From: a virus
DNA length: 38,428 nucleotides
Virus record (IMG/VR): IMGVR_UViG_3300007770_001202
Location: 1 to 38,428 of that record
Direction: 5' to 3' (one strand)
The position numbers and the translations under genes were made by a program. Positions 27,445 to 38,428 of the stretch are shown piece by piece. Under the pieces are notes generated by a model. The model had not been told where the DNA came from, searched no databases, and saw only the letters and a program-made list of their open reading frames with translations. Numbering within the stretch: the stretch's first letter is position 1; every line of letters starts with the position of its first letter.

Positions 27445-27519
27445 CTACTCGTCGGTGGCAGGAAGAAGCTTGTCACAGATGTACAGGAATGCGGCGAAGC
27501 CGACTAGGAAGGTAAACAC
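27445..27519 (-). CDS. 24-aa membrane micropeptide
   Basis: GTG start at 27519 right after the TAG of the 81-aa gene, behind GAGG. Sequence MFTFLVGFAAFLYICDKLLP then ATDE. Hydrophobic with an acidic end. Translation by coupling is likely; small size keeps confidence moderate. Confidence 0.5.
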   Translation of the reverse strand: MFTFLVGFAAFLYICDKLLPATDE

Positions 27520-27765: not shown

Positions 27766-27775
27766 GTTGGTACTC

Positions 27776-27871
27776 CTAGAAGCAGAAGAGGATGATTGCG
27801 TAGAGGTAGCCGAAGCCACCCAGGAGGAAGGCGCCGCCGATGGCAGCAGGGTCAAATTCGAAGAGGTCCAT
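27776..27871 (-). CDS. 31-aa membrane micropeptide
   Basis: Begins MDLFEFDPAAIGGAFLLGGF and ends YLYAIILFCF. GGTGGAG precedes the ATG; it is the first gene of the transcript from promoter 10. One hydrophobic helix with an acidic N-terminus. Confidence 0.6.
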   Translation of the reverse strand: MDLFEFDPAAIGGAFLLGGFGYLYAIILFCF

Positions 27872-27898
27872 GTGGTCTCCACCAGGGCTGCATTGCCC

Positions 27899-27937
27899 CA
27901 TTAGCTACATTCTATCTGGTTCGGTCGCCCGCTACAC
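27899..27937 (-). promoter_or_regulatory. Early-type promoter 10
   Basis: GTGTAGC 27931-27937, TAGAAT 27909-27914, AATG. Leader hairpin GGGC-AATGCA-GCCC. Here the TAG of the -10 box is the stop codon of the 72-aa gene. Confidence 0.75.
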
Positions 27938-28130
27938 GAACTGCCCACAGGTTGTGGTAGCCGCTGTTCCAGGGCTCGATGTGCTGGGCACGCTCAGGCC
28001 ACCTGACGGTCACCTTGCCGAACCTCTTCGTCCGGACGGTGCCGACCACGGGGTCGGTGCCTGGGAGGTCGCGAGCAGGGTCCCAGATGTGGGTGACTCG
28101 ACTGCCGGGCATAATATACGTTTTGCTCAT
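27912..28130 (-). CDS. Hypothetical SH3-like 72-aa protein on a leaderless mRNA
   Basis: Begins MSKTYIMPGSRVTHIWDPAR; contains VVGTVRTKRFGKVTVRW, KOW/SH3-like. The ATG at 28130 starts at the predicted +1 of promoter 11 with no ribosome site. The stop TAG lies inside the -10 element of promoter 10, so the gene is fully enclosed by promoter elements. Confidence 0.75.
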   Translation of the reverse strand: MSKTYIMPGSRVTHIWDPARDLPGTDPVVGTVRTKRFGKVTVRWPERAQHIEPWNSGYHNLWAVRVAGDRTR

Positions 28131-28165
28131 ATCAGTATAATACCACTACTCACCCATCATTACAC
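28127..28165 (-). promoter_or_regulatory. Early-type promoter 11 (leaderless)
   Basis: GTGTAAT 28159-28165, TATTAT 28137-28142, 6 nt, then ATGAGC, the start of the 72-aa gene. Confidence 0.78.
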
Positions 28166-28235
28166 GAAGCGCCGTGGCCACCAGCAAGCCAAAGGCCAGG
28201 GCGAAAACGACCAGGGCGGCGAAGGGGTCAGTCAC
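28146..28235 (-). CDS. 29-aa membrane micropeptide
   Basis: GTG start at 28235 inside the last codons of the 157-aa gene (8-nt overlap), behind a G-rich site. Reads MTDPFAALVVFALAFGLLVA then a short basic end. It runs through the -35 box of promoter 11. One membrane helix. Confidence 0.5.
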   Translation of the reverse strand: MTDPFAALVVFALAFGLLVATALRVMMGE

Positions 28236-28701
28236 AGGACCCCCACCGGGTGGCGGTCACCTGATAGACGTCGCGTCCGCCCAGGTCACGGAAGGTGGCG
28301 ATCGGATTGGCGATGGTGCCATAGCCCATCGGGTGGAAGCGACCGTACAGGCGCTCCGTCCAGGCGGTCAGCTCCGCCTCCGTCGAGGAGTACACCGTGT
28401 AGGAGTAGCGCCCACCACCGGCTCGGCCGCTGTGGGACTTGTTGACGAACAGGGAGCTGTCGGCATGCTCGAAGTGAGGGTTGCGCCGCATCTCGAGAAA
28501 AGACCGCTCGTGGACCGACTCGGCCTGCATCCGCCTGACCAGCTCCTGGGCGCGGAACTCAGAGACCTCGGCCTTGTGGGTGAAGACCACCCCGCCGTTG
28601 AGGCGGACCTTGACGCGGTTGACAGCCTCAGATGTGAGCATCCCCCGGTGGTTGCGGACCGTCCGGTTGTGGGTGTGCTCGATGTGATAGTGTGTGTTCA
28701 T
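28228..28701 (-). CDS. Hypothetical 157-aa protein
   Basis: Begins MNTHYHIEHTHNRTVRNHRG (His-rich), then VKVRLNGGVVFTHKAEVSEF, SHSGRAGGGRYSYTVYSSTE and VYQVTATRWGSCD. Mixed alpha/beta, unrecognised. AAGGAAG precedes the ATG at 28701; sole full-size gene behind promoter 12. Confidence 0.78.
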   Translation of the reverse strand: MNTHYHIEHTHNRTVRNHRGMLTSEAVNRVKVRLNGGVVFTHKAEVSEFRAQELVRRMQAESVHERSFLEMRRNPHFEHADSSLFVNKSHSGRAGGGRYSYTVYSSTEAELTAWTERLYGRFHPMGYGTIANPIATFRDLGGRDVYQVTATRWGSCD

Positions 28702-28731
28702 GCGCTTCCTTTCAGTCGGGGTCCATTCCCT

Positions 28732-28770
28732 CATTAGCTACATTATAACCCAGGCGACCGTGGGTTACAC
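28732..28770 (-). promoter_or_regulatory. Early-type promoter 12
   Basis: GTGTAAC 28764-28770, TATAAT 28742-28747, AATG. Leader has a weaker GGG-AATGGA-CCC hairpin. Confidence 0.75.
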
Positions 28771-28792
28771 GAGCCGGCGGATTTAATCAGAA

Positions 28793-29011
28793 CTAGTCAC
28801 ACCCGTCGAGGATGGACCGGAGGGCATCGACACGACCCCAGAGGTCAGTGAGTCGCTCTCCATTAAGGGCATTCCACTCAGCCTCTGCCGCCCGGTAGGA
28901 CGTCCACTCCACCAACCCCGCAGGGCTTTCAGGCGGCAGAGGCTTTGTATTCTGCAATGCCAGGGCAGCCTCAGTCAGCTCCTGGATGCTTTCTTCAATA
29001 ACTCGACTCAC
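28793..29011 (-). CDS. Hypothetical 72-aa helical protein
   Basis: GTG start at 29011 overlapping the TGA of the preceding gene. Helical and acidic (VIEESIQELTEAALALQNTK, ERLTDLWGRVDALRSILDG). Similar in layout to the adjacent 79-aa protein; may form a pair. Confidence 0.7.
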   Translation of the reverse strand: MSRVIEESIQELTEAALALQNTKPLPPESPAGLVEWTSYRAAEAEWNALNGERLTDLWGRVDALRSILDGCD

Positions 29012-29247
29012 GCCGAAATTCCCATCAGGGCATCCATGGTTGCAACAATCTTGAGGGCAGCCACCGCATCCTCGTGCTCCCGGGTCTCGAAGACCACCTC
29101 GGCGCTTCCGCTGATGGGAAGGGTACAGTGTCGCTCCTCCTCCATCAAGTCCTCGATCAGCTTGTTGACGGCGTTGGCCCGGGCCAGATTCTCTGCCAGG
29201 GCATTGAGTCGGTCATGGGCTGCCTCAAAGGGTGTAAGGTCTCGCAT
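29008..29247 (-). CDS. Hypothetical 79-aa helical protein
   Basis: Begins MRDLTPFEAAHDRLNALAEN; helical N-terminus, beta-like middle (CTLPISGSAEVVFETREHED). I chose the ATG at 29247 because AAAGG lies 9 nt upstream; an ATG at 29256 has the site directly against it. Overlaps the 3' gene by 4 nt. Confidence 0.7.
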   Translation of the reverse strand: MRDLTPFEAAHDRLNALAENLARANAVNKLIEDLMEEERHCTLPISGSAEVVFETREHEDAVAALKIVATMDALMGISA

Positions 29248-29249
29248 CT

Positions 29250-29399
29250 CTACCATCCTTTCCGACCCTTGTGCTTGACATGTCGGGCCGACTTGCCTGA
29301 ACCCTTTCCGGATCCTCGGCGTGCTTTGTTGGCGTGCTTTCCAGCCCCGCCCCGTTGAAAGGCGGCTACGGCTATCCAGTTTCTAGTTTTAGTTCGCAT
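29250..29399 (-). CDS. 49-aa highly basic protein
   Basis: Begins MRTKTRNWIAVAAFQRGGAG, followed by a Lys/Arg/Gly/His-rich tail (KSARHVKHKGRKGW). Likely binds nucleic acid. GGAGG precedes the ATG, on a short leader from promoter 13. Its end overlaps the ribosome site of the next gene. Confidence 0.7.
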   Translation of the reverse strand: MRTKTRNWIAVAAFQRGGAGKHANKARRGSGKGSGKSARHVKHKGRKGW

Positions 29400-29414
29400 G
29401 TTACCGCCTCCTCT

Positions 29415-29453
29415 CATTAGATAAATAATACCACGCGCAGAACTTGTTTACAC
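29415..29453 (-). promoter_or_regulatory. Early-type promoter 13
   Basis: GTGTAAA 29447-29453, TATTAT 29425-29430, then AATGAGAGGAGG. Short leader with an immediate ribosome site and no hairpin. Confidence 0.72.
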
Positions 29454-29495
29454 GCGTGCAGAAAGGAAAGTTTCTAAATGGAAATATTCCCACAC

Positions 29496-29544
29496 GTGCA
29501 AAGAAAAGAAAGTCCCGCATGTGCAAAGAAAAGAAAGTCCCGCA
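29496..29544. repeat. Two direct copies of a 24-nt purine-rich element
   Basis: Copies at 29496-29519 and 29521-29544, each running GTGCAAAGAAAAGAAAGTCC plus CGCA. The region 29454-29705 holds no supported gene. On the minus strand each copy is a pyrimidine tract suited to transcript ends. Confidence 0.7.
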
Positions 29545-29549
29545 CGGGA
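29525..29549 (-). terminator. Hairpin plus pyrimidine tract
   Basis: Minus strand TCCC-GTGC-GGGA followed by CTTTCTTTTCTTT. Second of two terminator-like hairpins after the 74-aa gene at 29706-29930. Confidence 0.45.
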
Positions 29550-29550
29550 A

Positions 29551-29584
29551 TGAAAAGATGCTGGGGTTCCCATACTTCCCCAGC
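29551..29584 (-). terminator. Intrinsic terminator-like hairpin
   Basis: Minus strand GCTGGGG pairs with CCCCAGC (29560-29584), followed by ATCTTTTCATT. Best placed to end transcription from promoter 14. Confidence 0.6.
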
Positions 29585-29705
29585 TAGACACGGCCTGCGA
29601 CTCCGGCTCGTACGTCCGCTTGTCACGCTTACGCAACCGCTATGATCTAGATCAGCACCTGATTCGGCGCTCCTAGCGGTCCGTGTCCCCCACGAATTTC
29701 AAAGA

Positions 29706-29930
29706 TCAGGCCCCTTCTTCAGCAGTCCGCTGGATCGCTGCACGACGACTCACATCGTAGAGAATGCTTCTCAGTTCATCGATGTTGAACTCGTTAATCC
29801 GAAGCGTGAAGGAATTCCCGAAGCGAATTGTCGCCATTCCGAGGGAATCCGCTTCGACCTCGATCTGAAGCGGGCCGTGATTCTCGGTGTTCAGAGTATC
29901 TGTCGTGGTGAAGAGCGTCTTGTAAGTCAT
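29706..29930 (-). CDS. Hypothetical 74-aa protein
   Basis: Begins MTYKTLFTTTDTLNTENHGP; beta-rich (LQIEVEADSLGMATIRFGNS) then a helix (NIDELRSILYDVSRRAAIQR). GGAG precedes the ATG at 29930. Has its own promoter (14) and terminators. Unrecognised. Confidence 0.75.
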   Translation of the reverse strand: MTYKTLFTTTDTLNTENHGPLQIEVEADSLGMATIRFGNSFTLRINEFNIDELRSILYDVSRRAAIQRTAEEGA

Positions 29931-29957
29931 GCGTTTTCTCCCGGGGAACCATTCCCC

Positions 29958-29996
29958 CATTAGCTACATTATATCCCAGCGCTACGCTGGTTACAC
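29958..29996 (-). promoter_or_regulatory. Early-type promoter 14
   Basis: GTGTAAC 29990-29996, TATAAT 29968-29973, AATG. Leader hairpin GGGGAA-TGG-TTCCCC. Confidence 0.8.
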
Positions 29997-30000
29997 GAGC

Positions 30001-30231
30001 TTAGTGCGTCCAGGTTGGCATGCCGTCAGCGAGGTTGGGCTCAGGATCCCTGGGCACTACACGAATGCATGCCTCAGAGTTGATGTTGTACTTCCCCGGC
30101 CAGCCGTCCACGGTGATGGTCAGGTCCATAGCCCAGGAGTCCACCGCAGTGACCTCGCCGGTCTCGTTCTGATGTGTCCCGTAAAGGATGAAAACTTTAT
30201 CGCCTACCTTGAACATTCCACTGTCCTCCAT
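30001..30231 (-). CDS. KOW/SH3-like 76-aa protein with two possible starts
   Basis: Contains MFKVGDKVFILYGTHQNETG and EVTAVDSWAMDLTITVDGW, a KOW-like barrel. The first ATG (30231) lies at the predicted +1 of promoter 15, so it could be leaderless. The in-frame ATG five codons later has GGAGG 8 nt upstream and fits the MxxVGD start of related proteins. Both products may be made. Confidence 0.75.
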   Translation of the reverse strand: MEDSGMFKVGDKVFILYGTHQNETGEVTAVDSWAMDLTITVDGWPGKYNINSEACIRVVPRDPEPNLADGMPTWTH

Positions 30232-30267
30232 TAATAATATAATATCACGCTCTTTGACAACTTACAC
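30229..30267 (-). promoter_or_regulatory. Early-type promoter 15
   Basis: GTGTAAG 30261-30267, TATTAT 30239-30244, 6 nt, AATGGAGG. The AATG is a start codon and GGAGG is a ribosome site for a second start. The box gives the GTG-TAA end of the 74-aa gene. Confidence 0.75.
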
Positions 30268-30486
30268 GTACAAGCCGACAGTATTCGGGTCCCAACCACC
30301 GTTGACCCAGACGTCGTCGACCTGCCCACCACTGGGCGCTCGAGGGGTCGGATCGTTCTGCTCCACGTGGTTGATGGACAGGTGCGGGTTCCGCTTCAGG
30401 AAGATGGCCACGTCGACTGGCCAACGCTCCTCTAGCAGGATCTCGCCGGTCTGGAAGTGGATGACGTCATGAAGCTTGTTGCGCAT
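30262..30486 (-). CDS. Hypothetical 74-aa protein
   Basis: Begins MRNKLHDVIHFQTGEILLEE; ends VNGGWDPNTVGLYV with the final Val-stop in promoter 15. The ATG overlaps the TGA of the 91-aa gene (TGATG). Unrecognised. Confidence 0.75.
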   Translation of the reverse strand: MRNKLHDVIHFQTGEILLEERWPVDVAIFLKRNPHLSINHVEQNDPTPRAPSGGQVDDVWVNGGWDPNTVGLYV

Positions 30487-30761
30487 CAGTACTCGTCTCC
30501 CTGATTAACGCGGAGGTATGCGTCCGCAGCCGCTCGGGTGATCTCGCCCTTATCGACGAGGCGGTCCAGCTGGCCGCGGATGTCATCGGGGTCATCATCT
30601 TCCAGGTCGTGGGTGATGGTGACATACCCCTCGTCGTGAGCACGAAACTCCACGGTCTCTGGGGGTCCGAGCTTACGGACCAGAAAGATCAGGTCGGGCT
30701 CAGTCAGGGTGATGAATGAGCCGTCGGCCCACTGCATGAAAACTCGGTCTTCGCCGGACAT
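30486..30761 (-). CDS. Hypothetical 91-aa acidic protein
   Basis: Beta-like N-terminal half (VFMQWADGSFITLTEPDLIF) and an acidic helical C-terminus (DLEDDDPDDIRGQLDRLVDK). GGAGG precedes the ATG at 30761. First gene behind promoter 16, coupled to the 74-aa gene. An acidic surface suggests a DNA-mimic or protein-binding role, but this is only composition. Confidence 0.75.
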   Translation of the reverse strand: MSGEDRVFMQWADGSFITLTEPDLIFLVRKLGPPETVEFRAHDEGYVTITHDLEDDDPDDIRGQLDRLVDKGEITRAAADAYLRVNQGDEY

Positions 30762-30789
30762 GGCTTACCTCCGTAGGACTGCATCGTCC

Positions 30790-30828
30790 CATTGATAGTA
30801 TTATATCAACGGGCGCAGTTCGCTACAC
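30790..30828 (-). promoter_or_regulatory. Early-type promoter 16
   Basis: GTGTAGC 30822-30828, TATAAT 30800-30805, AATG. Leader hairpin GGAC-GATGCA-GTCC. The box gives the GTG-TAG end of the 57-aa gene. Confidence 0.8.
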
Positions 30829-30996
30829 GCACTCCGTCGCGTTCCCGTTGATCCAGTGCCCGAAGGAATCGGGGATCAGCTGCCGGAGCTTGGCAATCGC
30901 CTCGCGCTCGGTCCGTGCCACAATGACGCGGGTACCTCGGACAATGCCCTTCCAGTACCGCTCCGGTCGCTCGTAGTGAACTTGATATCTTAGCAT
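30823..30996 (-). CDS. Hypothetical 57-aa basic protein
   Basis: Begins MLRYQVHYERPERYWKGIVR; contains VIVARTEREAIAKLRQLIPD and ends NATECV with stop in promoter 16. AGGAGG precedes the ATG. Starts 8 nt after the stop of the 94-aa gene. Confidence 0.72.
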   Translation of the reverse strand: MLRYQVHYERPERYWKGIVRGTRVIVARTEREAIAKLRQLIPDSFGHWINGNATECV

Positions 30997-31004
30997 GGTG
31001 CCTC

Positions 31005-31289
31005 CTAGGCTGCGTTCAGCATGTTGAGTGGGACATCCCAGGTCATGGCGAAGGGTGCTGAGCCGACCTTGACCAGGGCCTTCTTCTGCTTGACCCGCTC
31101 GATGATGCCGGTGAACGTTCCCTTGCGGCCGGTCCAGGTGACGCGGTCTCCGCTCTTGAACAGGTAGCGCTTTCGCTGGGACTCGCGGCGTCGTTGAGCC
31201 TTGAGCTCGGCAACGACCTCCGAGTTGATCCGGAGAAGCTGGTCCTCACGAAAGGTGGGAAGCCGGCTGAGGATGTCTTCAAGTGTCAT
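31005..31289 (-). CDS. KOW/SH3-like 94-aa basic protein
   Basis: A helical N-terminus (DILSRLPTFREDQLLRINSE) and Arg-rich linker lead into a KOW-like motif, FKSGDRVTWTGRKGTFTGII. The basic charge and KOW fold suggest RNA, ribosome or RNA-polymerase binding. First gene behind promoter 17; GGAG precedes the ATG. Confidence 0.78.
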   Translation of the reverse strand: MTLEDILSRLPTFREDQLLRINSEVVAELKAQRRRESQRKRYLFKSGDRVTWTGRKGTFTGIIERVKQKKALVKVGSAPFAMTWDVPLNMLNAA

Positions 31290-31315
31290 GCGTTTTCTCC
31301 AGGGGGTCCATCCCC

Positions 31316-31354
31316 CATTAAGATAATAATACCACCTGACGTGGCTGGTTACAC
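31316..31354 (-). promoter_or_regulatory. Early-type promoter 17
   Basis: GTGTAAC 31348-31354, TATTAT 31326-31331, AATG. Leader hairpin GGGGG-ATGGA-CCCCC. The box gives the GTG-TAA end of the 62-aa gene. Confidence 0.8.
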
Positions 31355-31537
31355 GACGATGTGAATCAGCTCTACCAGTCGCTTCTCAGCCTCATGTCGT
31401 GCTGCCATCCAGTCAGACATGACCTCATGCTCCTCCGCTCGAGTCTCGACCCGCTCCAGGAGGTCACGAAACTTCGCGTCGATGGTGTCGACCTCCTCGA
31501 GGAAGCCTGACAGGTCTGGATTGGGAGCAACGGTCAC
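31349..31537 (-). CDS. Hypothetical 62-aa helical protein
   Basis: GTG start at 31537 sharing a base with the previous stop. Helical and acidic (FLEEVDTIDAKFRDLLERVE, ARHEAEKRLVELIHIVV), coiled-coil-like. The stop lies in promoter 17. Confidence 0.72.
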   Translation of the reverse strand: MTVAPNPDLSGFLEEVDTIDAKFRDLLERVETRAEEHEVMSDWMAARHEAEKRLVELIHIVV

Positions 31538-31896
31538 TAGGTGGCCTTGTCGTAGTTCAGGTTGACCAGGACCATGGCGCGGAACAGATCGTCCAGGTAC
31601 TCAGGTCCGCCGTAGTCGGCGCGCCCAGGGCACGGAACATCGATGCCCTGGCTGAGCAGGGACTGGATCAGGTGCTTCATGCCGGCGGCGTGGCTGCCGA
31701 CGCTCATCAGGCCTGACATGAAGTTGACGCAGCCTCCCATGATCTGGAAGTGCCGGCCAGCCGAGTTCCCACGTGGGAAACTGACTCGAATGTCAGCCTC
31801 GGGGTGCTGGTACGTCAGCGCTCCTCGAGTGAGGGTGAAGTCCGACTTCTCGAACCCCAGCCCTCGGAGGAAGGCCGCGCGAGCGCGGGCCGACAC
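31537..31896 (-). CDS. Hypothetical 119-aa protein
   Basis: GTG start at 31896 sharing a base with the stop of the upstream gene. Contains ALTYQHPEADIRVSFPRGNS, FQIMGGCVNFMSGLMSVGSH and YGGPEYLDDLFRAMVLVNLN. Unrecognised mixed alpha/beta protein; middle of a three-gene unit from promoter 18. Confidence 0.75.
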   Translation of the reverse strand: MSARARAAFLRGLGFEKSDFTLTRGALTYQHPEADIRVSFPRGNSAGRHFQIMGGCVNFMSGLMSVGSHAAGMKHLIQSLLSQGIDVPCPGRADYGGPEYLDDLFRAMVLVNLNYDKAT

Positions 31897-32204
31897 TAGG
31901 CCGACACCTCAGCAGCAGCCTCGGCCTCGACCGCATCGGTCAGGTCGTTGAGCTGGGCGGAGAGCAGGGTGATCTGCCGGCGAAGCTTGGTGATCTTGAG
32001 ATCCCGCTTCTCGACCCGGGAGAGCTCCCGTGCCAGGGCGACCAGGGGGGTGGCGGACTTGTTCGAAGCCACGACCTTGGAGCCGTCGGCGTCGGTGCCG
32101 TCAGCGTTCTTGACCCGGACGAGTCGCCACTTCTTGCCGTCGTGACGGGTGCCGAAGTTGCCGAAGTTCCAGGACTTGCGTTCTGCGTTCTTGAGATTTG
32201 CCAT
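31896..32204 (-). CDS. Hypothetical protein, paralogue of the gene at 26019-26363
   Basis: A 102-aa protein beginning MANLKNAERKSWNFGNFGTR and then HDGKKWRLVRVKNADG, KVVASNKSATPLVALARE, SRVEKRDLKITKLRRQITLL. It shares the WxFGxFxTxHDGKxWRLVR and SNKSATPLVALAR cores with its paralogue and has a coiled-coil tail. GGAGG precedes the ATG at 32204. First gene of the unit from promoter 18. Confidence 0.8.
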   Translation of the reverse strand: MANLKNAERKSWNFGNFGTRHDGKKWRLVRVKNADGTDADGSKVVASNKSATPLVALARELSRVEKRDLKITKLRRQITLLSAQLNDLTDAVEAEAAAEVSA

Positions 32205-32246
32205 GTGTGAAGAGCCTCCTTGACTCAGATGGTGACTCCATGTCTC

Positions 32247-32285
32247 CATCTTTTTAATTATACCCCGACTTGGGGCCGGCTACAC
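32247..32285 (-). promoter_or_regulatory. Early-type promoter 18
   Basis: GTGTAGC 32279-32285, TATAAT 32257-32262. The leader differs: no GGGG, instead GATGG...CCATC pairing over a 13-nt loop. Confidence 0.72.
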
Positions 32286-32324
32286 GAGCCGCGTTTTCTT
32301 TTTCCGTGTCGAGGCACCTTGCCT

Positions 32325-32363
32325 CAACTCCTATATAATACCCCAGGCGCGGGTGGGTTACAC
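32325..32363 (-). promoter_or_regulatory. Early-type promoter 19, no clear gene before next promoter
   Basis: GTGTAAC 32357-32363, TATTAT 32335-32340. Leader begins with the perfect hairpin GAGGCA-AGG-TGCCTC. Only about 40 nt separate it from promoter 18, so it either doubles promoter 18 or drives a relic; a 15-codon TTG frame ends in the next box. Confidence 0.7.
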
Positions 32364-32369
32364 GCGCGA

Positions 32370-32537
32370 CTAGTTATAGATCCGCTTGATAAGCTTCCGC
32401 TTCCCGTTGGGAATCTGCTTCCAGATCGTGCCGCTCCAGACGTTGATGCACTCGGCGTGGAACAGGCTGGTGGGTCCGATCTTGAACCGCTTCCCGTTCT
32501 TGTCCACCCCGGTGACGATGTAGATCAGTTCAGTCAC
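32370..32537 (-). CDS. Hypothetical 55-aa basic protein
   Basis: GTG start at 32537 inside the last codons of the 72-aa gene (8-nt overlap). Sequence has ELIYIVTGVDKNGKRFKIGP and a basic end (PNGKRKLIKRIYN). Unrecognised, beta-like. Confidence 0.65.
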   Translation of the reverse strand: MTELIYIVTGVDKNGKRFKIGPTSLFHAECINVWSGTIWKQIPNGKRKLIKRIYN

Positions 32538-32748
32538 CCGCGAACTCCACGAACTGGGAGTCGGCGTAGACCAGCTCCTCGAAGTGACCAGGGATAACCT
32601 CCTCGATCCCGACGAAGCCGGGGGAGGGATCCAGCCCGCACTCGAGCGAGACGTCCTCCAGGACCTCGGTGATCTCGACCACCCGCGATCCGTTGTACTC
32701 AGTGTCGACCATCACTCGATCGCCGACCTTGAAGACCTGAAATGCCAT
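32530..32748 (-). CDS. KOW/SH3-like 72-aa protein
   Basis: Begins MAFQVFKVGDRVMVDTEYNG, then SRVVEITEVLEDVSLECGLD. This is a small KOW-like barrel with an acidic end. GGAGGA precedes the ATG at 32748. First gene behind promoter 20; same general type as the GDLV genes at the right end. Confidence 0.77.
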   Translation of the reverse strand: MAFQVFKVGDRVMVDTEYNGSRVVEITEVLEDVSLECGLDPSPGFVGIEEVIPGHFEELVYADSQFVEFAGD

Positions 32749-32775
32749 GTTGTTTCCTCCGGGACTCCATTGCCC

Positions 32776-32814
32776 CAACTCCTATATAATATCCCAGGCA
32801 CACGTGCGTTACAC
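32776..32814 (-). promoter_or_regulatory. Early-type promoter 20
   Basis: GTGTAAC 32808-32814, TATTAT 32786-32791, then GTTGGGGC. The -10 and downstream bases match promoter 19. Leader has a GGG...CCC hairpin. Confidence 0.77.
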
Positions 32815-32817
32815 GTG

Positions 32818-33051
32818 CTAGCCGAAGTCGAGCAGGTCCTGCACGGTGCAGCCGATGGCCTCGGCCCTGGCGAGCAGCAGCTGGTCGTCGTCCATGCGGT
32901 CAGCCTGCAGCTGGACCAGGGCGTCGAGGATGTGCTCCCTCTCGCCGAACTCGCTGAGAAGGTACTGGACCTCTTCCTCAGTCATGTCGTAGATGGAACC
33001 TGGGTCGATGGTGAACAGGTCTGCGATCTCTGCAATGCGCTGTGGCGTCAT
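32818..33051 (-). CDS. Hypothetical 77-aa acidic protein
   Basis: Begins MTPQRIAEIADLFTIDPGSI, then DMTEEEVQYLLSEFGEREHI. Acidic and helical. AGGAGA precedes the ATG at 33051. Single-gene transcript from promoter 21. Unrecognised. Confidence 0.75.
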   Translation of the reverse strand: MTPQRIAEIADLFTIDPGSIYDMTEEEVQYLLSEFGEREHILDALVQLQADRMDDDQLLLARAEAIGCTVQDLLDFG

Positions 33052-33079
33052 GTGCGTGTCTCCTAGAGGGTGTATCCCC

Positions 33080-33118
33080 CATTAGCTACATTATAACCCA
33101 GGCACCCCCAGGCTACAC
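33080..33118 (-). promoter_or_regulatory. Early-type promoter 21
   Basis: GTGTAGC 33112-33118, TATAAT 33090-33095, AATGGGGG. Leader hairpin is weaker (GGG with CCC). Confidence 0.77.
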
Positions 33119-33262
33119 GAGCTCGAAAACAAAAGAAAACCCGCACCTGGGAAAGAAAAGAAGATCCAGGGAGCCCGGGCGTGTAATGAAAGAAAGTTTT
33201 GGATCCGCGGTCCGTCACGTGTAAGGAAGCGCAGGGTGTGGTATATTGGTCAGGCTGGGAGC
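33119..33262 (-). terminator. Non-coding spacer with hairpin and pyrimidine tracts
   Basis: No gene is supported. On the minus strand GATCCA (33200-33205 side) can pair with TGGATC (33163-33168 side), followed by TTCTTTTCTTT, and a second tract TTTTCTTTTGTTTTC follows CCC-AGGTGC-GGG. Likely end of the transcript from promoter 22. Confidence 0.4.
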
Positions 33263-33556
33263 TTACAGGTTATCCAGGCTGCCCGTATCGAACGGGTCCA
33301 CCGGAACGCCTGAGGCACTGTCCAGGGCGGCCGCCCTTCGAGCGCTCAGCTCGTTGGTCGTCATCCTCGGACCCAGCCCGATCAGCGCCGCAGCGCTCCC
33401 GCTGTGTAGCGGCTGGTCCATCCCATCCCAGAGCACCCAGGCTCCGAGGTGTCTGTCCCGCATCAGGACAATACCCTTCCTTCCGGTCACCCGCTCCTCA
33501 ACCCGTGTCCCGGTGTCGAAGTCCTTCTCAAGGTCATTCAGCGTTCTCTCAATCAA
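33263..33556 (-). CDS. Hypothetical 97-aa protein
   Basis: TTG start at 33556, GGAGG 9 nt upstream. Contains FDTGTRVEERVTGRKGIVLM and HLGAWVLWDGMDQPLHSGSA, KOW/SH3-like, then an Ala/Arg helical end. Single-gene transcript from promoter 22. Confidence 0.75.
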   Translation of the reverse strand: MIERTLNDLEKDFDTGTRVEERVTGRKGIVLMRDRHLGAWVLWDGMDQPLHSGSAAALIGLGPRMTTNELSARRAAALDSASGVPVDPFDTGSLDNL

Positions 33557-33570
33557 GGTGTGATTCCTCC

Positions 33571-33609
33571 ATTCAAGTACATTATACCTGGCGATGGTGC
33601 TCGCTACAC
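33571..33609 (-). promoter_or_regulatory. Early-type promoter 22
   Basis: GTGTAGC 33603-33609, TATAAT 33581-33586, then GAATGGAGG. Short leader with the ribosome site almost at the RNA start and no hairpin. Confidence 0.75.
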
Positions 33610-33612
33610 GAC

Positions 33613-33933
33613 CTAGGGGTCCTCTTCCTCGTCCAGGTCATTGGGGCGCCAGACTCTGACCAGGGCGCCGATAGGCAACCACAGCAGGACGTAGGCGGCA
33701 AACAGGATGGCCCAGCCGTCCAGGGCAACAGTCATGTCCTGTAGCGGTCGGGGCACTGCACCCTGCAGCAGGTCAACAGCTCGGCCGATGGCCAGACCGG
33801 AACCCACAGCGAGTACCAGCCCGACCACCAGCGTCACCAAAACACCAAGGGCGTTTCCTACGACCTGGCCCAGCAGCCTGAAGACATCAGTCATCTTGGC
33901 GCTAGTAACTTCTTTTTTTTGATCATCACTCAT
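33613..33933 (-). CDS. Two-helix membrane protein
   Basis: A 106-aa protein with hydrophobic segments GNALGVLVTLVVGLVLAVGS and GWAILFAAYVLLWLPIGALV and an acidic C-terminus (DLDEEEDP). Predicted inner-membrane protein, possibly a holin or antiholin or an exclusion protein. No ribosome site; TACTAT lies 6 nt before the ATG, so this mRNA too may be leaderless, though its -35 region does not match GTGTARC. Confidence 0.75.
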   Translation of the reverse strand: MSDDQKKEVTSAKMTDVFRLLGQVVGNALGVLVTLVVGLVLAVGSGLAIGRAVDLLQGAVPRPLQDMTVALDGWAILFAAYVLLWLPIGALVRVWRPNDLDEEEDP

Positions 33934-33993
33934 GTATTAATAGTATCCCGGAAAGAAAGAGTGTTCATTAAAAAGAAAGTCTCTCGAGAAAAG

Positions 33994-34045
33994 AAATCCT
34001 AAAAGGAAATCCTAAAAGGAAATCCTAAAAGGAAAGTCTAAAAGG
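33994..34045. repeat. Four tandem 13-nt repeats
   Basis: AAATCCTAAAAGG occurs at 33994-34006, 34007-34019 and 34020-34032, with a variant AAAGTCTAAAAGG at 34033-34045. The last unit contains the stop codon of the 62-aa gene, so the array grew into its 3' end. No gene lies in 33934-34037. Confidence 0.85.
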
Positions 34046-34226
34046 AATTTCCCTCGTCTCCCTCCGGCCTAGGCTCGTGGTGAAGCTTAACTCGGAACGA
34101 CACCTCAGCGCGGTGTTCCCCATGCCAGATCAACACCTTATTCCCGTCGCGACGGACGTCGTCCAGGGAATTAAAGGCATCCCGCAGCGAGCGGTAGATC
34201 TCGTCGATGACGTCATCCCTTGTCAC
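34038..34226 (-). CDS. Hypothetical 62-aa protein
   Basis: GTG start at 34226 behind GGAGATG, 15 nt after the tRNA-Ser 3' end. Reads VIDEIYRSLRDAFNSLDDVR then NKVLIWHGEHRAEVSFRVKL: a helix followed by a beta hairpin. Unrecognised. Its stop lies in a tandem repeat array. Confidence 0.7.
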   Translation of the reverse strand: MTRDDVIDEIYRSLRDAFNSLDDVRRDGNKVLIWHGEHRAEVSFRVKLHHEPRPEGDEGNSF

Positions 34227-34241
34227 GGCTCATCTCCGGCG

Positions 34242-34329
34242 TGGCGGAGGGGGTGGGATTCGAACCCACGGTGGCTCGCGCCACGGCGGTTTTCAAGACC
34301 GCTACCTTCGTCCACTCGGTCACCCCTCC
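34242..34329 (-). tRNA. tRNA-Ser(TGA)
   Basis: Acceptor GGAGGGG pairs with CCCCTCC, discriminator G, CCA encoded at 34242-34244. Anticodon stem-loop GCGGT-CTTGAAAA-CCGC gives TGA. The long variable arm is typical of Ser; T arm GTGGG-TTCGAAT-CCCAC. Its 5' end overlaps the last codons and stop (TGA) of the gene at 34320. Confidence 0.97.
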
Positions 34330-34607
34330 CTCCCGATCACAATCAGCTCCGAGGCCAGCCACCTCTCCTCCCGGCCCTCCCGGAGTAGCCAGACTTCCTG
34401 GGTCTCCGTCTCGTCCATCAGCCTGATCTGGTGAACACGGACCACGATCCCTGGTGTTGCCGGACCCATCGGCTTGAATCCCGGCTGGATGACGCCCCGA
34501 GGTGGATGCCAGCCCACTGCCAGGTCGCCAGGGTGGAAGACGTCGATGTCCGGATACGTGGCCACTGATAATGGTACCGCCCGTCGTCGAGGATGTACAA
34601 TGTCCAT
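34320..34607 (-). CDS. SH3-like 95-aa protein ending inside tRNA-Ser
   Basis: Core VFHPGDLAVGWHPPRGVIQP, then PGIVVRVHQIRLMDETETQE and RWLASELIVI. It is typical of the small barrel proteins that dominate the right end of the window. The chosen ATG (34607) gives MDIVHPRRRAVPLSVATYPD; reading further upstream to 34679 enters low-quality sequence. No strong ribosome site, so the start is uncertain. The stop codon overlaps the tRNA acceptor stem by about 10 nt. Confidence 0.65.
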   Translation of the reverse strand: MDIVHPRRRAVPLSVATYPDIDVFHPGDLAVGWHPPRGVIQPGFKPMGPATPGIVVRVHQIRLMDETETQEVWLLREGREERWLASELIVIGREG

Positions 34608-34799
34608 TCTTCGTGTACAATGGGTCCGTCTTGGGGTTAAGCGCCAGCAAAAGACCCAAAGATAAAAAAAGACCCCCATCGCTCCTAAGATAAGAAAGTC
34701 CTAGTCCCACTCCCTCTCCTCCACTATCCACCACAATCCTCCACCGTATGACACGTATCCACTGTCACGCGCACGTAGGGCCCAGTCGCAGTGGCCAAG

Positions 34800-35039
34800 T
34801 CATCCACCGTAGGAATCCCAGTCAGGACTGCCGATCGCTGGGTACAGCCAAGTACAGCCAATGGGCGTCACCACGCCGCAGTCCAGGACCACCACGAAGC
34901 CCCCATACTTGGTGTATTCTGAGGCGTCGAGCGACAGCACCAGGACAGGGCGGACTGGGTGGAAGTGGTCGTGCTTTGCGTCCGGTGGGTCGATGTCTGT
35001 GTGTAGCATGTCCCCTATGTGGATGTCCTCTATCAGCAT
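34800..35039 (-). CDS. GDLL-family small protein A
   Basis: A 79-aa protein beginning MLIEDIHIGDMLHTDIDPPD, with VRPVLVLSLDASEYTKYGGF and VVVLDCGVVTPIGCTWLYPA. It is a close paralogue of the next two genes (IxVGDLLxxDID..., LVLxxSLE, VLDCGV). Small beta barrel of unknown role. AAGGAAG lies upstream of the ATG. Confidence 0.78.
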   Translation of the reverse strand: MLIEDIHIGDMLHTDIDPPDAKHDHFHPVRPVLVLSLDASEYTKYGGFVVVLDCGVVTPIGCTWLYPAIGSPDWDSYGG

Positions 35040-35060
35040 CTCTCTTCTCTCTCTGCTTCC

Positions 35061-35363
35061 TTAGGGGTTTTCTTTATTAGCCGGCGTGGAACTGCCCTCG
35101 AGATCGGGGTCATCCATTCCGTCGAAGTACAGGTCAGCGGACTGGTCGCCTGGCCAGAGCCAGACACAGCTGATGGAGGTTCGGACGCCACAGTCGAGCA
35201 CAGTCACGTAGCCAGCCTCCCCACTCCCCTCAGCGGTCTCCAACGACACTACCAGAACCAACCTCTCGTCACGAACACCTTCCTCGATATCCGTATATCG
35301 GATGTTCGGTGGATCGATGTCTGTCCGAAGCAGGTCACCTACGTTGATGTCCGCTCTCAGCAT
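35061..35363 (-). CDS. GDLL-family small protein B
   Basis: A 100-aa protein beginning MLRADINVGDLLRTDIDPPN, then VLVVSLETAEGSGEAGYVTV and LDCGVRTSISCVWLWPGDQ, with a longer acidic tail than its paralogues. The ATG overlaps the end of the 68-aa gene by 7 nt, coupling them. Confidence 0.78.
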   Translation of the reverse strand: MLRADINVGDLLRTDIDPPNIRYTDIEEGVRDERLVLVVSLETAEGSGEAGYVTVLDCGVRTSISCVWLWPGDQSADLYFDGMDDPDLEGSSTPANKENP

Positions 35364-35563
35364 GCGTCTTCTTCAATCGGCCAGACCTGTGTGTCGCGAA
35401 CATGACGCACCACTCCCCTGTCCAGGATGCTGACGTTCGGACCACCATGCTCGGCGGGGATGGGGATGACGTCCAGGACCAGCACCGGTCGCGATATCAT
35501 GACACCGCTCTCTATACTATCCCGGTGAAGCAGGTCACCGACCTTGATCTCCATTAGCAGCAT
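35357..35563 (-). CDS. GDLL-family small protein C
   Basis: A 68-aa protein, MLLMEIKVGDLLHRDSIESG then VLVLDVIPIPAEHGGPNVSI and LDRGVVRHVRDTQVWPIEED. Third member of the tandem family. A second ATG at 35554 overlaps the TAA of the previous gene (TAATG) and may be the true start. Confidence 0.75.
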   Translation of the reverse strand: MLLMEIKVGDLLHRDSIESGVMISRPVLVLDVIPIPAEHGGPNVSILDRGVVRHVRDTQVWPIEEDAC

Positions 35564-35814
35564 CTCTCGTCCCCTCGCTTCTGGTTGACATGGTGCCTGT
35601 GACACAGCCGCTCAGTCGGGGCCAGGTAGGTGGAGCCGGTCAGGACTAGCAGGTCATCTCCTCCCCACCGGTCCATACCATTCAGCGGCTGATTGTACAG
35701 CACCATGAACCTCCGCTCGATGATCTCTTCCCCATCGGTGATGGGCTCCAGCTCCGAGGTGATGATCCCGAATGTATCGTATGGCTCGTTGTGGACCAGG
35801 TCGCCGACTTTCAT
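35554..35814 (-). CDS. GDLV-family small protein
   Basis: An 86-aa protein, MKVGDLVHNEPYDTFGIITS then RRFMVLYNQPLNGMDRWGGD and a basic Cys/His-containing end (LCHRHHVNQKRGDERCC). SH3-like start shared with its neighbours. Overlaps the upstream 49-aa gene by 4 nt (ATGA). Confidence 0.77.
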   Translation of the reverse strand: MKVGDLVHNEPYDTFGIITSELEPITDGEEIIERRFMVLYNQPLNGMDRWGGDDLLVLTGSTYLAPTERLCHRHHVNQKRGDERCC

Positions 35815-35960
35815 CGGACCACCTCTACTCTGCTAAGAATAATCCGATCATGTCTACCGTCTGCCCACAAGACAACCGGGTCTAGACCAGTCCAGCCTAC
35901 AATGATGCCCGTCATCCGGGATTCAGAGTTTAGATTCTTCACCAAGTCACCGATCTTCAT
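35811..35960 (-). CDS. GDLV-family small protein
   Basis: A 49-aa protein: MKIGDLVKNLNSESRMTGII, VGWTGLDPVVLWADGRHDRI, ILSRVEVVR. The minimal form of the family. Its first 14 nt overlap the end of the previous gene, with NEDR-stop and MKIGD read from the same bases. Confidence 0.75.
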   Translation of the reverse strand: MKIGDLVKNLNSESRMTGIIVGWTGLDPVVLWADGRHDRIILSRVEVVR

Positions 35961-36138
35961 TGATCACCTCCAGCCTCTCTTCGTGAATCTGAATGATCTT
36001 GCCGCGTAGTACTAGAAGCCACCATCCCCTGACAGTCAAGGGAAACCGATGCGGATCCTGTTTTATCAGGACGCCAACATCACCCTTGAACTGAGGGTAG
36101 CCTTCTTCGCAGAGCTTCACCAGGTCACCGATCTTCAT
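35947..36138 (-). CDS. GDLV-family small protein
   Basis: A 63-aa protein: MKIGDLVKLCEEGYPQFKGD, VGVLIKQDPHRFPLTVRGWW, ending LEVINEDR. Both its start and its end lie in 14-nt overlaps with neighbours. SH3-like barrel predicted; role unknown. Confidence 0.77.
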   Translation of the reverse strand: MKIGDLVKLCEEGYPQFKGDVGVLIKQDPHRFPLTVRGWWLLVLRGKIIQIHEERLEVINEDR

Positions 36139-36331
36139 TAACAACCTCCAGGTCATCTACATTCATGGTCCAGACGCCATCTTCACATAGGACCTCAGCC
36201 GCCTGGTAGTAGTCAACCAGGTGAACGAGGTTATCATCCACATCATAGACGTGCAGCACCACACCGAATTCCTCAGGGTGACGCCTGCTCGCCGACTGGA
36301 ATCCCAGTTTAACCAGGTCACCGGTCTTCAT
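36125..36331 (-). CDS. GDLV-family small protein
   Basis: A 68-aa protein: MKTGDLVKLGFQSASRRHPE, EFGVVLHVYDVDDNLVHLVD, ending DLEVVNEDR. It overlaps by 14 nt with the HD hydrolase gene upstream and with the next GDLV gene downstream. Confidence 0.77.
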   Translation of the reverse strand: MKTGDLVKLGFQSASRRHPEEFGVVLHVYDVDDNLVHLVDYYQAAEVLCEDGVWTMNVDDLEVVNEDR

Positions 36332-36848
36332 AGTAATGTCCAAGGAGATGAAGGGTATTGCCTAGGAGAGTCTTGTCTCCCTCCTGCAGGACACCGAGGA
36401 GCAACAGCTTCTCGGCCATATAGACCTTGGCGAAGTCAGGATCGTTTGCCCTGATATCGACTGAGTTGCTGATGAGGTCGGCCAGCTTGATGGTCTTCGC
36501 CCTTGGCGAGGCCTTGGCTGTGTGTGCTCGATCCTTGGCCTTACGGACCTGTCGGGTGCCGTCGGCCGGGGTGCTAACATCGGTCAGGTCAGAGACCAGG
36601 GCGGCGACATCGTCTCCGAACTCAGCCCGGATATCATCGATAGTGTGGTCAGTATCCTCCACTACGTCGTGAAGTAGGGCAGCGGCCAACATGGCATCGT
36701 CGTGCTCCACCCCACTCACGATCCCCATCACCTCGCTGGGATGGTGGATGTATGGGATTGCGGTGTACTTCCGGACTTGTCCCTCGTGCGCGCGGGTTGC
36801 GAACTCAAACGCCCTTTGAACAATCTCACTGCGGTTAGTCATCCTCAT
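36318..36848 (-). CDS. SpoT/MESH1-like HD hydrolase (second copy)
   Basis: A 176-aa protein. HD motifs are RKYTAIPYIHHPSEV, AAALLHDVVEDTDHTIDD and KTIKLADLISNS, as in single-domain (p)ppGpp hydrolases. It lacks the N-terminal tag of the copy at 14907, so it would be made in the cell after infection. Its start shares 14 nt with the upstream gene's end and its own end (YEDR-stop) shares 14 nt with the next start, so it sits in the GDLV overlap chain. Substrate (alarmone or other nucleotide) is inferred. Confidence 0.87.
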   Translation of the reverse strand: MRMTNRSEIVQRAFEFATRAHEGQVRKYTAIPYIHHPSEVMGIVSGVEHDDAMLAAALLHDVVEDTDHTIDDIRAEFGDDVAALVSDLTDVSTPADGTRQVRKAKDRAHTAKASPRAKTIKLADLISNSVDIRANDPDFAKVYMAEKLLLLGVLQEGDKTLLGNTLHLLGHYYEDR

Positions 36849-37053
36849 TGATAATCCTCCAGTTGGTGTACTCAAGTCGAGTCACCCAGGTTCGACCGTC
36901 CTCATTCAAGATCCTCATCCGATCTGTCACCTGTCCCGGTCCAAGGACCCCAGGTGGAATTATCTCCAGGACTACTGCGGTCCCGCCGTGTGCCTCAATC
37001 AGGTCTCCCACTTTGATATGGTCACCGAGCATCATGGTCCTAGTGGTCTTCAC
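36835..37053 (-). CDS. GDLV-family small protein
   Basis: A 72-aa protein with GTG start in the 14-nt overlap. Sequence MLGDHIKVGDLIEAHGGTAV, VLEIIPPGVLGPGQVTDRMR, ending WRIINEDD. An internal start nearer the VGD motif is possible. SH3-like. Confidence 0.75.
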   Translation of the reverse strand: MKTTRTMMLGDHIKVGDLIEAHGGTAVVLEIIPPGVLGPGQVTDRMRILNEDGRTWVTRLEYTNWRIINEDD

Positions 37054-37261
37054 TGATTACATCCAAAGCATTATGCCTCACTAGTCGTTTGCTGCCGTTA
37101 TCCATCAGCAACCAGGCACACATAACTGGCTCCATGCGCATCAGGTCAACCTTCAGAGAGGCGACCTCAGTCACAAGGGCTCGCCTGCCAACCAGTCCAC
37201 CTGCATCGCAGGAGCTGTTGACGCGAACCATGTCACCAGGTTGGGGCTTTGACCTCTTCAT
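37040..37261 (-). CDS. GDMV-family small protein on a leaderless mRNA
   Basis: A 73-aa protein: MKRSKPQPGDMVRVNSSCDA, GGLVGRRALVTEVASLKVDL, ending ALDVISEDH. The ATG at 37261 coincides with the AATG region of promoter 23, so translation of the whole chain probably begins on a leaderless message. Confidence 0.78.
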   Translation of the reverse strand: MKRSKPQPGDMVRVNSSCDAGGLVGRRALVTEVASLKVDLMRMEPVMCAWLLMDNGSKRLVRHNALDVISEDH

Positions 37262-37297
37262 TAAGGTTATTCTATCACCCGGATGGGTGCGTTACAC
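37259..37297 (-). promoter_or_regulatory. Early-type promoter 23 (leaderless)
   Basis: GTGTAAC 37291-37297, TAGAAT 37269-37274, 6 nt, AATG whose ATG starts the 73-aa gene. Drives the overlapping GDLV/HD chain. Confidence 0.75.
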
Positions 37298-37327
37298 GTG
37301 TGTCGGGGGATATCATATAGCAATACT

Positions 37328-37897
37328 TTACTTCAAGGGGCGAGCTACCACCGGAGCTGTCGACTCGAGTCCGCGGTCACCCCATCCACCCCGCAGCCAT
37401 GTCGGGTACATCATGTGTCCGGCCCGCATGGTGTGCATAAATCCCAGGGCATGCCCGAGCTCGTGTTCCACGATACGTTCCAGGGGTGCCGACTTCAGGA
37501 ATATCTTTGCCCAAGCAATCTCCTGGGTATCTTCGTCCAGGGAAAAGTGGGTTTCGGCCATTAAGTCACCATCAGTGAACATCTGTTGATTTCCAACGTG
37601 GATAGTGATAAACCCCTCAGGATATTCAACCTGACATTTTCCCAGGGGATCATCGGTCGAGACAGCGCTAAAGAACGAATGGCCGTGCTGCTTCCACCAC
37701 TTCACCGCTTCGGCAACAGCTCCAACGGTGACTGGAGCTCCGGAGCAGACCACCACCGTGGGAGTGTACTTCCACTTCCCAATTCGAGCTGGTATCGTGC
37801 TGTCGCTGACAGGTAGTTTGTGAATGCCGGTGACCGTAGGGTTCGATCCCACCAATAGTGGTGCAAGCAGCAGTAGTACCAGAGCTAACCTCTTCAC
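37328..37897 (-). CDS. Secreted metzincin-type zinc protease
   Basis: A 189-aa protein. The N-terminus from the GTG at 37897 is a textbook signal peptide (MKRLALVLLLLAPLLVGSNP); an in-frame TTG at 37918 is an alternative. The zinc motif is EHELGHALGFMHT (HExxHxxGxxH), followed by a Met-turn in AGHMMYPTW. This is the matrixin/metzincin pattern. There is no propeptide cysteine switch in view. It would be exported to the host periplasm or outside. Phage metzincins are uncommon; target unknown. Confidence 0.88.
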   Translation of the reverse strand: MKRLALVLLLLAPLLVGSNPTVTGIHKLPVSDSTIPARIGKWKYTPTVVVCSGAPVTVGAVAEAVKWWKQHGHSFFSAVSTDDPLGKCQVEYPEGFITIHVGNQQMFTDGDLMAETHFSLDEDTQEIAWAKIFLKSAPLERIVEHELGHALGFMHTMRAGHMMYPTWLRGGWGDRGLESTAPVVARPLK

Positions 37898-37914
37898 ACC
37901 TATAAGTATGTGTG

Positions 37915-38178
37915 TCAATCAGCATTTGGTATATCCTCTCGGCGAATCTTTTTCAGCCACCCGACATTAATATCCTCGAGCTCACCGCCCACCAGGACCT
38001 GGACTCGAGTGATCCAGGCTGCTCCTGTCGGCTCATAGGGTTTCATCACCACCCCGATCCTGGCATCCTGGATTAGTTTACCTCGGCCACTCTTACGACC
38101 GGCAATCTGGACCATATCTCCAGGCCTGAAGGAGCCGGGTGATACTTCTGTGGATTTAAGGTCGCTGGACAACAACAA
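37915..38178 (-). CDS. GDMV-family small protein
   Basis: Core FRPGDMVQIAGRKSGRGKLI and IGVVMKPYEPTGAAWITRVQ, then DINVGWLKKI. SH3-like. AAGGAGG lies just upstream of three in-frame TTG codons (38178 to 38172); the third has the best spacing. It overlaps the upstream gene's 3' end by about 20 nt. Confidence 0.72.
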   Translation of the reverse strand: MLLSSDLKSTEVSPGSFRPGDMVQIAGRKSGRGKLIQDARIGVVMKPYEPTGAAWITRVQVLVGGELEDINVGWLKKIRREDIPNAD

Positions 38179-38374
38179 CCTCCTTCACAAGCAACGTTTC
38201 AGTACCGGCCTCACTTAAGACGCGGACGCAGCCGTCACCCACCCAGGTGATCACCATCCGACTACCACTGGATCGATTGACACGATCAGCGAGCCTCCAC
38301 CGGCACAGGTCACCGACCTGGATGGGCTGGCCCAGGCAATCGAGTGTAGCATCATCAGACACGTCGTCGTTCAT
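38156..38374 (-). CDS. GDL-family small protein
   Basis: A 72-aa protein: acidic start (MNDDVSDDATLDCLGQPIQV), then GDLCRWRLADRVNRSSGSRM and VITWVGDGCVRVLSEAGTET. SH3-like barrel of the same general type. AAAGG lies before the ATG at 38374. Confidence 0.75.
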   Translation of the reverse strand: MNDDVSDDATLDCLGQPIQVGDLCRWRLADRVNRSSGSRMVITWVGDGCVRVLSEAGTETLLVKEVVVVQRP

Positions 38375-38428
38375 GATCGCCTTTCTGGATGATTGTCAGC
38401 CTGTCCAAAGGATTTGAGACGAATAGCT
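38355..38428 (-). CDS. C-terminal end of a further small gene, partial
   Basis: An open frame enters from the right edge and reads LFVSNPLDRLTIIQKGDHER before stopping at 38355-38357, overlapping the next start by 20 nt, as in the rest of this chain. Another frame ending at 38371 is also open, so the call is tentative. Confidence 0.35.
   Translation of the reverse strand, partial: LFVSNPLDRLTIIQKGDHERRRV

Follow-up and report, generated by a model that had tools for sequence, protein, structure and literature searches.

Several described systems place short repeated signals, or the start of a gene, at the edges of phage genes. In T4-like phages, the promoter-early-stem-loop elements (PeSLs; Arbiol 2010 and Comeau 2014, as cited in PMC4503421) are presented by the citing text as repeats between small genes at which genes are shuffled. 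The Start Associated Sequences (SASs) of cluster K mycobacteriophages are a conserved repeat with a Shine-Dalgarno core, found before the starts of different gene families; according to the available part of PMC3203893 they are 13 nt long, occupy the position of the ribosome site before the start and, in some cases, carry an inverted-repeat extension upstream. Termination–reinitiation gene pairs have a start inside the end of the previous gene and a Shine-Dalgarno site in coding sequence, as excerpts of PMC6728339, PMC10666635 and PMC3887535 describe them. About 45% of prokaryotic overlaps are of 4 nt and about 15% of 1 nt, by the figures excerpted from PMC3887535. Translation of genes with short overlaps is coupled in bacteria and archaea; the final 15 nt of the first gene are enough for it, and a distance between −8 and +10 nt is treated as predicting reinitiation (PMC10666635, in the excerpt available).

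The locus described here lies in a 38,428-base IMG/VR virus record, which we call the window and whose coordinates are used throughout. Seven genes, A to G, follow one another on the minus strand from 37261 to 35554, with recomputed overlaps of 14, 14, 14, 14, 14 and 4 nt; we call the overlaps, with the ribosome site before them, joints (Table 1). Integron gene cassettes and phage morons are single genes inserted at standard sites. Unlike them, the chain has no integrase or att site that we could see, and no promoter was found inside it. The likeness to PeSLs, as far as the citing text describes these, is one of short repeated regulatory sequences beside many small phage genes, with shuffling there. 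The PeSL of that text is an intergenic promoter/terminator cassette, whereas the present joint is translational and lies inside coding sequence; looking for an early promoter and a stem-loop in an intergenic gap, we found instead that the joints are coding and that no promoter or terminator is called in the chain on its strand. SASs, unlike the joint, are not described in the available part of PMC3203893 as overlapping genes or as breakpoints of insertions and deletions. Set against both PeSLs and SASs as those sources present them, the joint lies in overlapping coding sequences and unites ribosome site, start and stop. It shares with termination–reinitiation pairs the start inside the previous gene's end, yet the coupled overlaps known from the cited excerpts are mostly of 4 or 1 nt and are not a repeated, exchangeable element. 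A search of open-licence PubMed Central text found no description of the joint.

Table 1. Coordinates of the genes, joints and promoter-like element of the chain and of the genes that follow it (all on the minus strand, listed in the direction of reading).
Feature	Position	Strand	Remarks
Degenerate copy of the record's repeated promoter-like element	37259..37305	-	ends just before gene A; repeat family D3, 62% identity to reference
Gene A	37040..37261	-	73 aa; divergent family member (..QPGDMVRV.. / ..LDVISEDH)
Joint A/B	37040..37053	-	GTGAAGACCACTAG; stop TAG; 14 nt only with GTG start of B
Gene B	36835..37053	-	72 aa with GTG start; family member; C-terminus WRIINEDD
Joint B/HD	36835..36848	-	ATGAGGATGACTAA; stop TAA; GGAGG upstream
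HD-domain phosphohydrolase gene (predicted)	36318..36848	-	176 aa; C-terminus GHYYEDR; unrelated cargo between two joints
Joint HD/D	36318..36331	-	ATGAAGACCGGTGA; 1 mismatch to ATGAAGATCGGTGA
Gene D	36125..36331	-	68 aa; MKTGDLVKLG..LEVVNEDR
Joint D/E	36125..36138	-	exact ATGAAGATCGGTGA; Shine-Dalgarno site CTGGAGGTTGTTA
Gene E	35947..36138	-	63 aa; MKIGDLVKLC..LEVINEDR; predicted five-stranded SH3-like barrel
Joint E/F	35947..35960	-	exact ATGAAGATCGGTGA; Shine-Dalgarno site CTGGAGGTGATCA
Gene F	35811..35960	-	49 aa; MKIGDLVKNL..VEVVR; without NEDR tail
Joint F/G	35811..35814	-	4-nt type ATGA; Shine-Dalgarno site GAGGTGG in Val-Glu-Val-Val codons
Gene G	35554..35814	-	86 aa; family member
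Gene H	35357..35563	-	family member (IKVGDLLHRD); G/H overlap 10 or 1 nt, loose joining
Gene I	35061..35363	-	family member (INVGDLLRTD); 7-nt overlap with H
Gene J	34800..35039	-	family member, paralogue of I, after 21-nt gap; repeat D15, 80% over 69 nt

A preliminary description of this DNA had reported seven genes joined at six junctions, and our recomputation reproduced its coordinates and overlap lengths. It had also assigned five of the junctions to one 14-nt form. The length holds at all five (at A/B if B starts at its GTG); the exact sequence does not, being confined to D/E and E/F, which are the two matches to ATGAAGATCGGTGA in the whole record. By direct comparison, B/HD differs from ATGAAGATCGGTGA at 5 positions and A/B at 6. 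Allowing up to 3 mismatches, the window has six sites like AATGAAGATCGGTGA where 1.28 would be expected by chance, and no shuffle out of 100 had as many. As in translationally coupled genes, each stop in the chain falls at or within a few nucleotides of the downstream start, with overlaps of 14 and 4 nt. Two starts deserve comment. The GTG of gene B has only a weak GGAT upstream, and two ATG codons follow at 37035 and 37032 (MMLGDHIKVGD), either of which would turn the overlap into a gap; joint A/B may thus be unused. The HD gene has a second possible start 6 nt downstream, which would give an 8-nt overlap, and the strong GGAGG is spaced to fit the first ATG. The small proteins of the chain (49–86 aa) have in common a Gly-Asp motif near the start, and several have a Leu/Val-Glu-Val-type motif near the end.

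We propose that the chain is made of self-chaining gene units, an explanation to which, taken whole, we give a probability of roughly 0.7. The unit would be a gene of ~50–75 codons whose product is a small SH3-like beta-barrel, with Leu-Glu-Val-(Ile/Val) as the last strand. The codons of this strand would be spelled (T)GGAGGT-NNT-, which would double as the Shine-Dalgarno site for a start 6–7 nt farther on in another frame, and the upstream frame would continue through ATGAAAGTCGGTGA to a TGA in the next gene's Gly-Asp codons, which would produce both the overlap of 14 nt and a tail, N-E-(S/D)-R. Because such a unit would begin with the common start and finish with the ribosome site for the next gene, reading frames would survive recombination between any two joints: whole genes would be added or removed, with start site, stop and frame right on both sides. 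Unrelated genes, such as the HD hydrolase, could fill the slot. The operon would be read from one promoter, its genes probably coupled in translation.

The barrel is a prediction. The model of the gene E protein (pLDDT 87.8, pTM 0.72) has strands at residues 6–9, 21–28, 38–43, 48–52 and 56–58, as in an SH3-like small barrel, with Leu-Glu-Val forming the fifth and last strand and the NEDR tail lying outside the fold at lower confidence. Among its neighbours in the PDB are YorP (TM 0.76) and PetP (0.77), scored by query length, with E values of 0.004–0.008, and also HspQ and KOW domains; all share the fold with gene E and are too distant in sequence for a family assignment. Against KOW (PF00467) gene E scores 16.2 bits, below the curated cut-off of 22.3, and one of 57 family members matches KOW at E ≤ 0.01. 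None of the window's small proteins could be assigned to a Pfam or PHROG family. The members have diverged strongly, with a mean column identity of 19%.

The anatomy of the joint can be read directly from the alignment. Aligned joints give the consensus TGGAGGTGATCA-RTGAAAGTCGGTGATTTGGT, conserved over about 32 nt, in which the Leu-Glu-Val codons of the last strand spell TGGAGGT, a Shine-Dalgarno site 6–7 nt before the next start. Among the matches listed, 379 joints have a 4-nt Shine-Dalgarno core, and 360 of them keep that spacing; no recognisable core is present in 82 of 461 14-nt joints. The codons themselves carry the mark of this second duty. The joint Glu is encoded by GAG in 353 of 365 cases, as against 563 of the 1294 Glu codons elsewhere in the same proteins; where no 14-, 4- or 1-nt overlap is called, GAG accounts for 60 of 84, lower than at joints and still not basal (all among the matches listed). 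The bias is selection on DNA made visible through codon choice.

What of the tail? It is frequent, with N/S-E-S-R in most 14-nt joints and N-E-D-R also occurring, and one might take it for a functional peptide signal of the family. We find that scarcely credible. Among the matches listed, 341 of 348 genes with an xE(S/D/G/N/R)(R/G/S) tail have a 14-nt overlap, so that the tail is nearly confined to it, and in most of the other 7 the downstream frame is short or broken. Gene F, at a 4-nt joint, lacks the tail, and unrelated proteins at joints share it. Since the tail tracks the overlap and is predicted to lie outside the fold, it is best read as the joint translated rather than as a protein motif.

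The 14 nt arise because the next gene's Gly-Asp codons (GGTGAY, for example GGTGAC) supply the first TGA stop in the upstream frame. When the next gene is unrelated, its start keeps its distance to the Shine-Dalgarno codons and the overlap becomes 8, 11, 14, 17 or 20 nt. Among the matches listed, the overlap is 8 nt in 7, 11 nt in 15, 14 nt in 26, 17 nt in 4, 20 nt in 3 and 4 nt in 30 of 122 cases with a non-family next gene; this count leaves out 392 of 934 genes with no candidate that has a Shine-Dalgarno core, and its filters pass family variants (MKVGN, MKVGS), so that by eye the 26 cases at 14 nt comprise 12 unrelated genes and 14 variants. What is kept is the geometry from Shine-Dalgarno site to start, and the 14-nt length is a by-product. 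It could be argued that the 14-nt overlap was itself selected as an optimum for termination–reinitiation that fixes stoichiometry, gene turnover being incidental; that short overlaps couple translation, and that 15 nt are enough, would suit this idea (PMC10666635, as excerpted). We consider it improbable in view of the coexisting 4-nt and 1-nt joints, of the drift from 8 to 20 nt before unrelated genes while the start position holds, and of the value of −14 itself, which lies outside the −8 to +10 nt range of the same excerpt. Coupling of the chain genes by termination–reinitiation is plausible and compatible with the anatomy; since 14 nt exceeds that range, it is just as possible that the upstream ribosome opens the site and translation begins there anew. 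We set aside, by reasoning, a programmed +1 frameshift at CGG-TGA-C, which would yield fused barrels: there is no slippery site, and the Shine-Dalgarno site lies too far upstream.

Does the joint occur elsewhere? The preliminary description had suggested a search for the element genome-wide and in relatives; within the record the yield was the two exact copies, and beyond it the joint is common in uncultured viral contigs, though not with a fixed length of 14 nt. The viral loci were picked from IMG/VR by start patterns, so the frequencies that follow apply to these loci and not to viruses at large. A first scan, with the joint pattern, gave at least 119 stretches and at least 194 sites. Among the matches listed, 45 or more open codons precede the site in the frame of a 14-nt overlap at 124 of the 194 sites, in the 4-nt frame at 41 and in the gene's own frame at 9. 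A second scan, a stronger test than the count within the window and one in which the preceding A and the GGT codon were both optional, yielded at least 174 distinct family starts; 80 of its 119 rows were read directly and the other loci deduced from locus numbering. Among the matches listed, the upstream gene ends 14 nt inside at 70 of the 174 starts, 4 nt inside at 46 and 1 nt inside at 8, with other overlap lengths at 11 and no upstream gene callable at 39. Pooling the loci of both scans gave at least 934 distinct family-like open reading frames, whose overlap with the next frame of at least 30 codons, among the matches listed, is 14 nt in 461, 4 nt in 146, 1 nt in 25 and otherwise in 302. 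The frequency of 4-nt joints means that the 14-nt form is not required. The longest chains among the matches listed have ten genes, and one (L029) has nine successive overlaps, all of 14 nt.

Cultured phages gave a different picture. Searches of isolate phages by tblastn with family proteins and by blastn with a 2.4-kb array found no match, and megablast of positions 30000–38428 of the window against phages found no close relative. The family thus did not turn up in cultured phages by the searches made, and would be missed by isolate work. In cellular genomes (the whole species collection) the first joint pattern matched 43 stretches, once each, and arrays are present in only a few contigs (L352, L361/L383 from one record, L363, L372, L382 and L385). 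Most of the array-bearing cellular contigs come from metagenome bins and may be viral. L385 (CP070664.1, listed as a WOR-3 chromosome, 2.8 Mb, bacterial) holds two chained family genes, which are there either as a provirus or through a binning error.

Genes come and go at the joint. The preliminary description had proposed a universal joint for the addition of genes, and this is borne out by near-identical contigs that differ by whole genes there and by unrelated genes between joints. In the clearest pair, L013 and L017, flanks of ~100% identity surround a 176-nt difference: in L013 two copies of ATGAAAGTCGGTGATTTGGT enclose a 59-aa gene that L017 lacks, its neighbours there meeting at a 14-nt joint. 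Point changes near the event mark the two as distinct strains. For a systematic count, 40-nt flanks outside the joint at 1712 family starts in 288 loci were mapped in the other loci. Among the matches listed, 8 distinct insertions or deletions (11 in total) span a family start, as against 2 (3 in total), 0, 0 and 1 (1 in total) at control positions shifted by +45, +90, −45 and −90 nt. Collinear pair-positions numbered 278 at the start and 343–379 at the shifts. Seven of the 8 run from joint to joint (L326/L066 does not on its left), and two of the 8 share the short locus L336. Starts are so closely packed in the arrays that an earlier, looser count of events within ±30 nt (24 of 50) gave way to the shifted-position control. 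The joint of the short form is a hybrid in L261/L015 and in L020/L058, so that the crossover there falls among the first 4–7 bases of the start. In L080/L011 an unrelated 156-aa gene is present or absent exactly between the ribosome site and the MKIGD start. Gain and loss are indistinguishable in these pairs. Both marks of repeat-mediated shuffling are therefore found, the element beside different genes and presence/absence breakpoints at the element, and we infer that the exchange proceeds by recombination between joints through short homology of about 14–32 nt. Two further pairs of near-identical contigs, L006/L086 and L106/L114, differ by genes whose borders are a different repeated ribosome site with its start, GGAGA(A/G)TAAAGAATGAA; such joints may not be limited to the MKVGD family.

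Since the contigs were assembled from metagenomes and the joint is a short repeat, the presence/absence pairs might be artefacts of assembly across repeats. This we hold to be very unlikely. The words used in assembly are usually longer than the repeat of about 20 nt, L013 and L017 have point changes near the event, and events recur in several pairs. A more serious competitor is ordinary tandem duplication of one ancestral overlapping pair, with the overlap inherited and the joint playing no role in gene exchange. Genes D, E and F are indeed paralogues with near-identical joints (repeat D14), and the chains consist mostly of family members. Yet the joint is conserved over about 32 nt in proteins of 19% mean column identity, unrelated genes sit in the slots, and breakpoints fall at joints and not in mid-gene, so we judge duplication unlikely as the explanation.

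The HD hydrolase is the cargo gene of the window. Its predicted product is an HD-domain phosphohydrolase, with 72.3 bits to Pfam HD_4 (gathering cut-off 27.2) and a match to PHROG 990, metal-dependent phosphohydrolase, at 1.2e-43. The preliminary description had supposed that the ends of this gene adapted to the overlap, and had named as a counter-indication HD homologues that end in EDR whatever their neighbours. Among 61 viral relatives with 59 readable C-termini (183 phage records were left out), EDR and ESR endings are absent from all 59, and none of the relatives lies next to a joint; a joint-like start lies near them at one locus only, 2.4 kb distant. The native relatives end a few residues past the same helix. 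The counter-indication did not appear, and the supposition is supported in part; adaptation as such is not needed, the last residues being the joint read in frame. The relatives are at most ~63% identical and located elsewhere, and no before/after pair for the HD insertion was found among them. Elsewhere in the window (14907–15560, minus strand) there is a second HD_4-type protein, at 24.6 bits just below the Pfam cut-off of 27.2.

The HD gene has company. Among the matches listed, 158 genes that pass the non-family filter, as some family variants also do, have a 14-nt joint at their end, and in 47 of them the start too lies within an upstream family gene. Pfam was run on ten such genes, and six match: PMM/HAD hydrolase, AhpC/TSA, GIY-YIG, DUF3310, SWIM (exactly at the Pfam cut-off) and Clp protease; the other four match nothing. 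The window's HD gene belongs with these unrelated cargo genes at joints. It is tempting to go further and see in the ~32-nt coding-embedded joint a general landing site for single genes in a group of uncultured phages, an integron-like array without an integrase, in which the last strand of the barrels would be the docking site and genes with joint ends would be expressed and coupled in translation as soon as they arrive; we offer this tentatively, as a possibility somewhat short of an even bet.

How the many small genes of unknown function enter and leave phage genomes is an open question, and if self-chaining units are the right reading, the answer would here be readable in the sequence: where a gene enters, why it is expressed at once and why reading frames survive. 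The same reading would account for a protein family of great diversity in which the ends answer to signals at the level of DNA and not to protein function alone. It would also supply a ready-made way of extending an operon by further genes that need no promoter of their own.

The promoter of the chain is probably the degenerate element just before gene A, which, going by its sequence and position, would be the only one. From 34.7 to 37.25 kb no copy of family D3 is listed. A scan with a generic sigma-70 consensus called no promoter at 37259–37305 or elsewhere in the chain on its strand, and no terminator was called in the chain on that strand. Many copies of the repeated promoter-like element (CGTGTAGC/CGTGTAAC, ~17 nt, TATAATGTAGCTAATGGGG) stand before many small genes at 23398–33611 on the minus strand; it is a candidate for a promoter specific to the phage and could also be a shuffling element in its own right.

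The record has other features of interest, all on the minus strand. ARAGORN places a tmRNA gene with the tag ANDSNYSTYALAA at 2980–3344. At 5806–6502, a PP-loop ATPase (TilS-like, Pfam ATP_bind_3) adjoins a tRNA with anticodon CAT, a pair that may make and modify an AUA-reading tRNA-Ile. Genes for PrkA, SpoVR and DUF444 (YeaH-type) stand in a row at 6972–11439 in this virus record.
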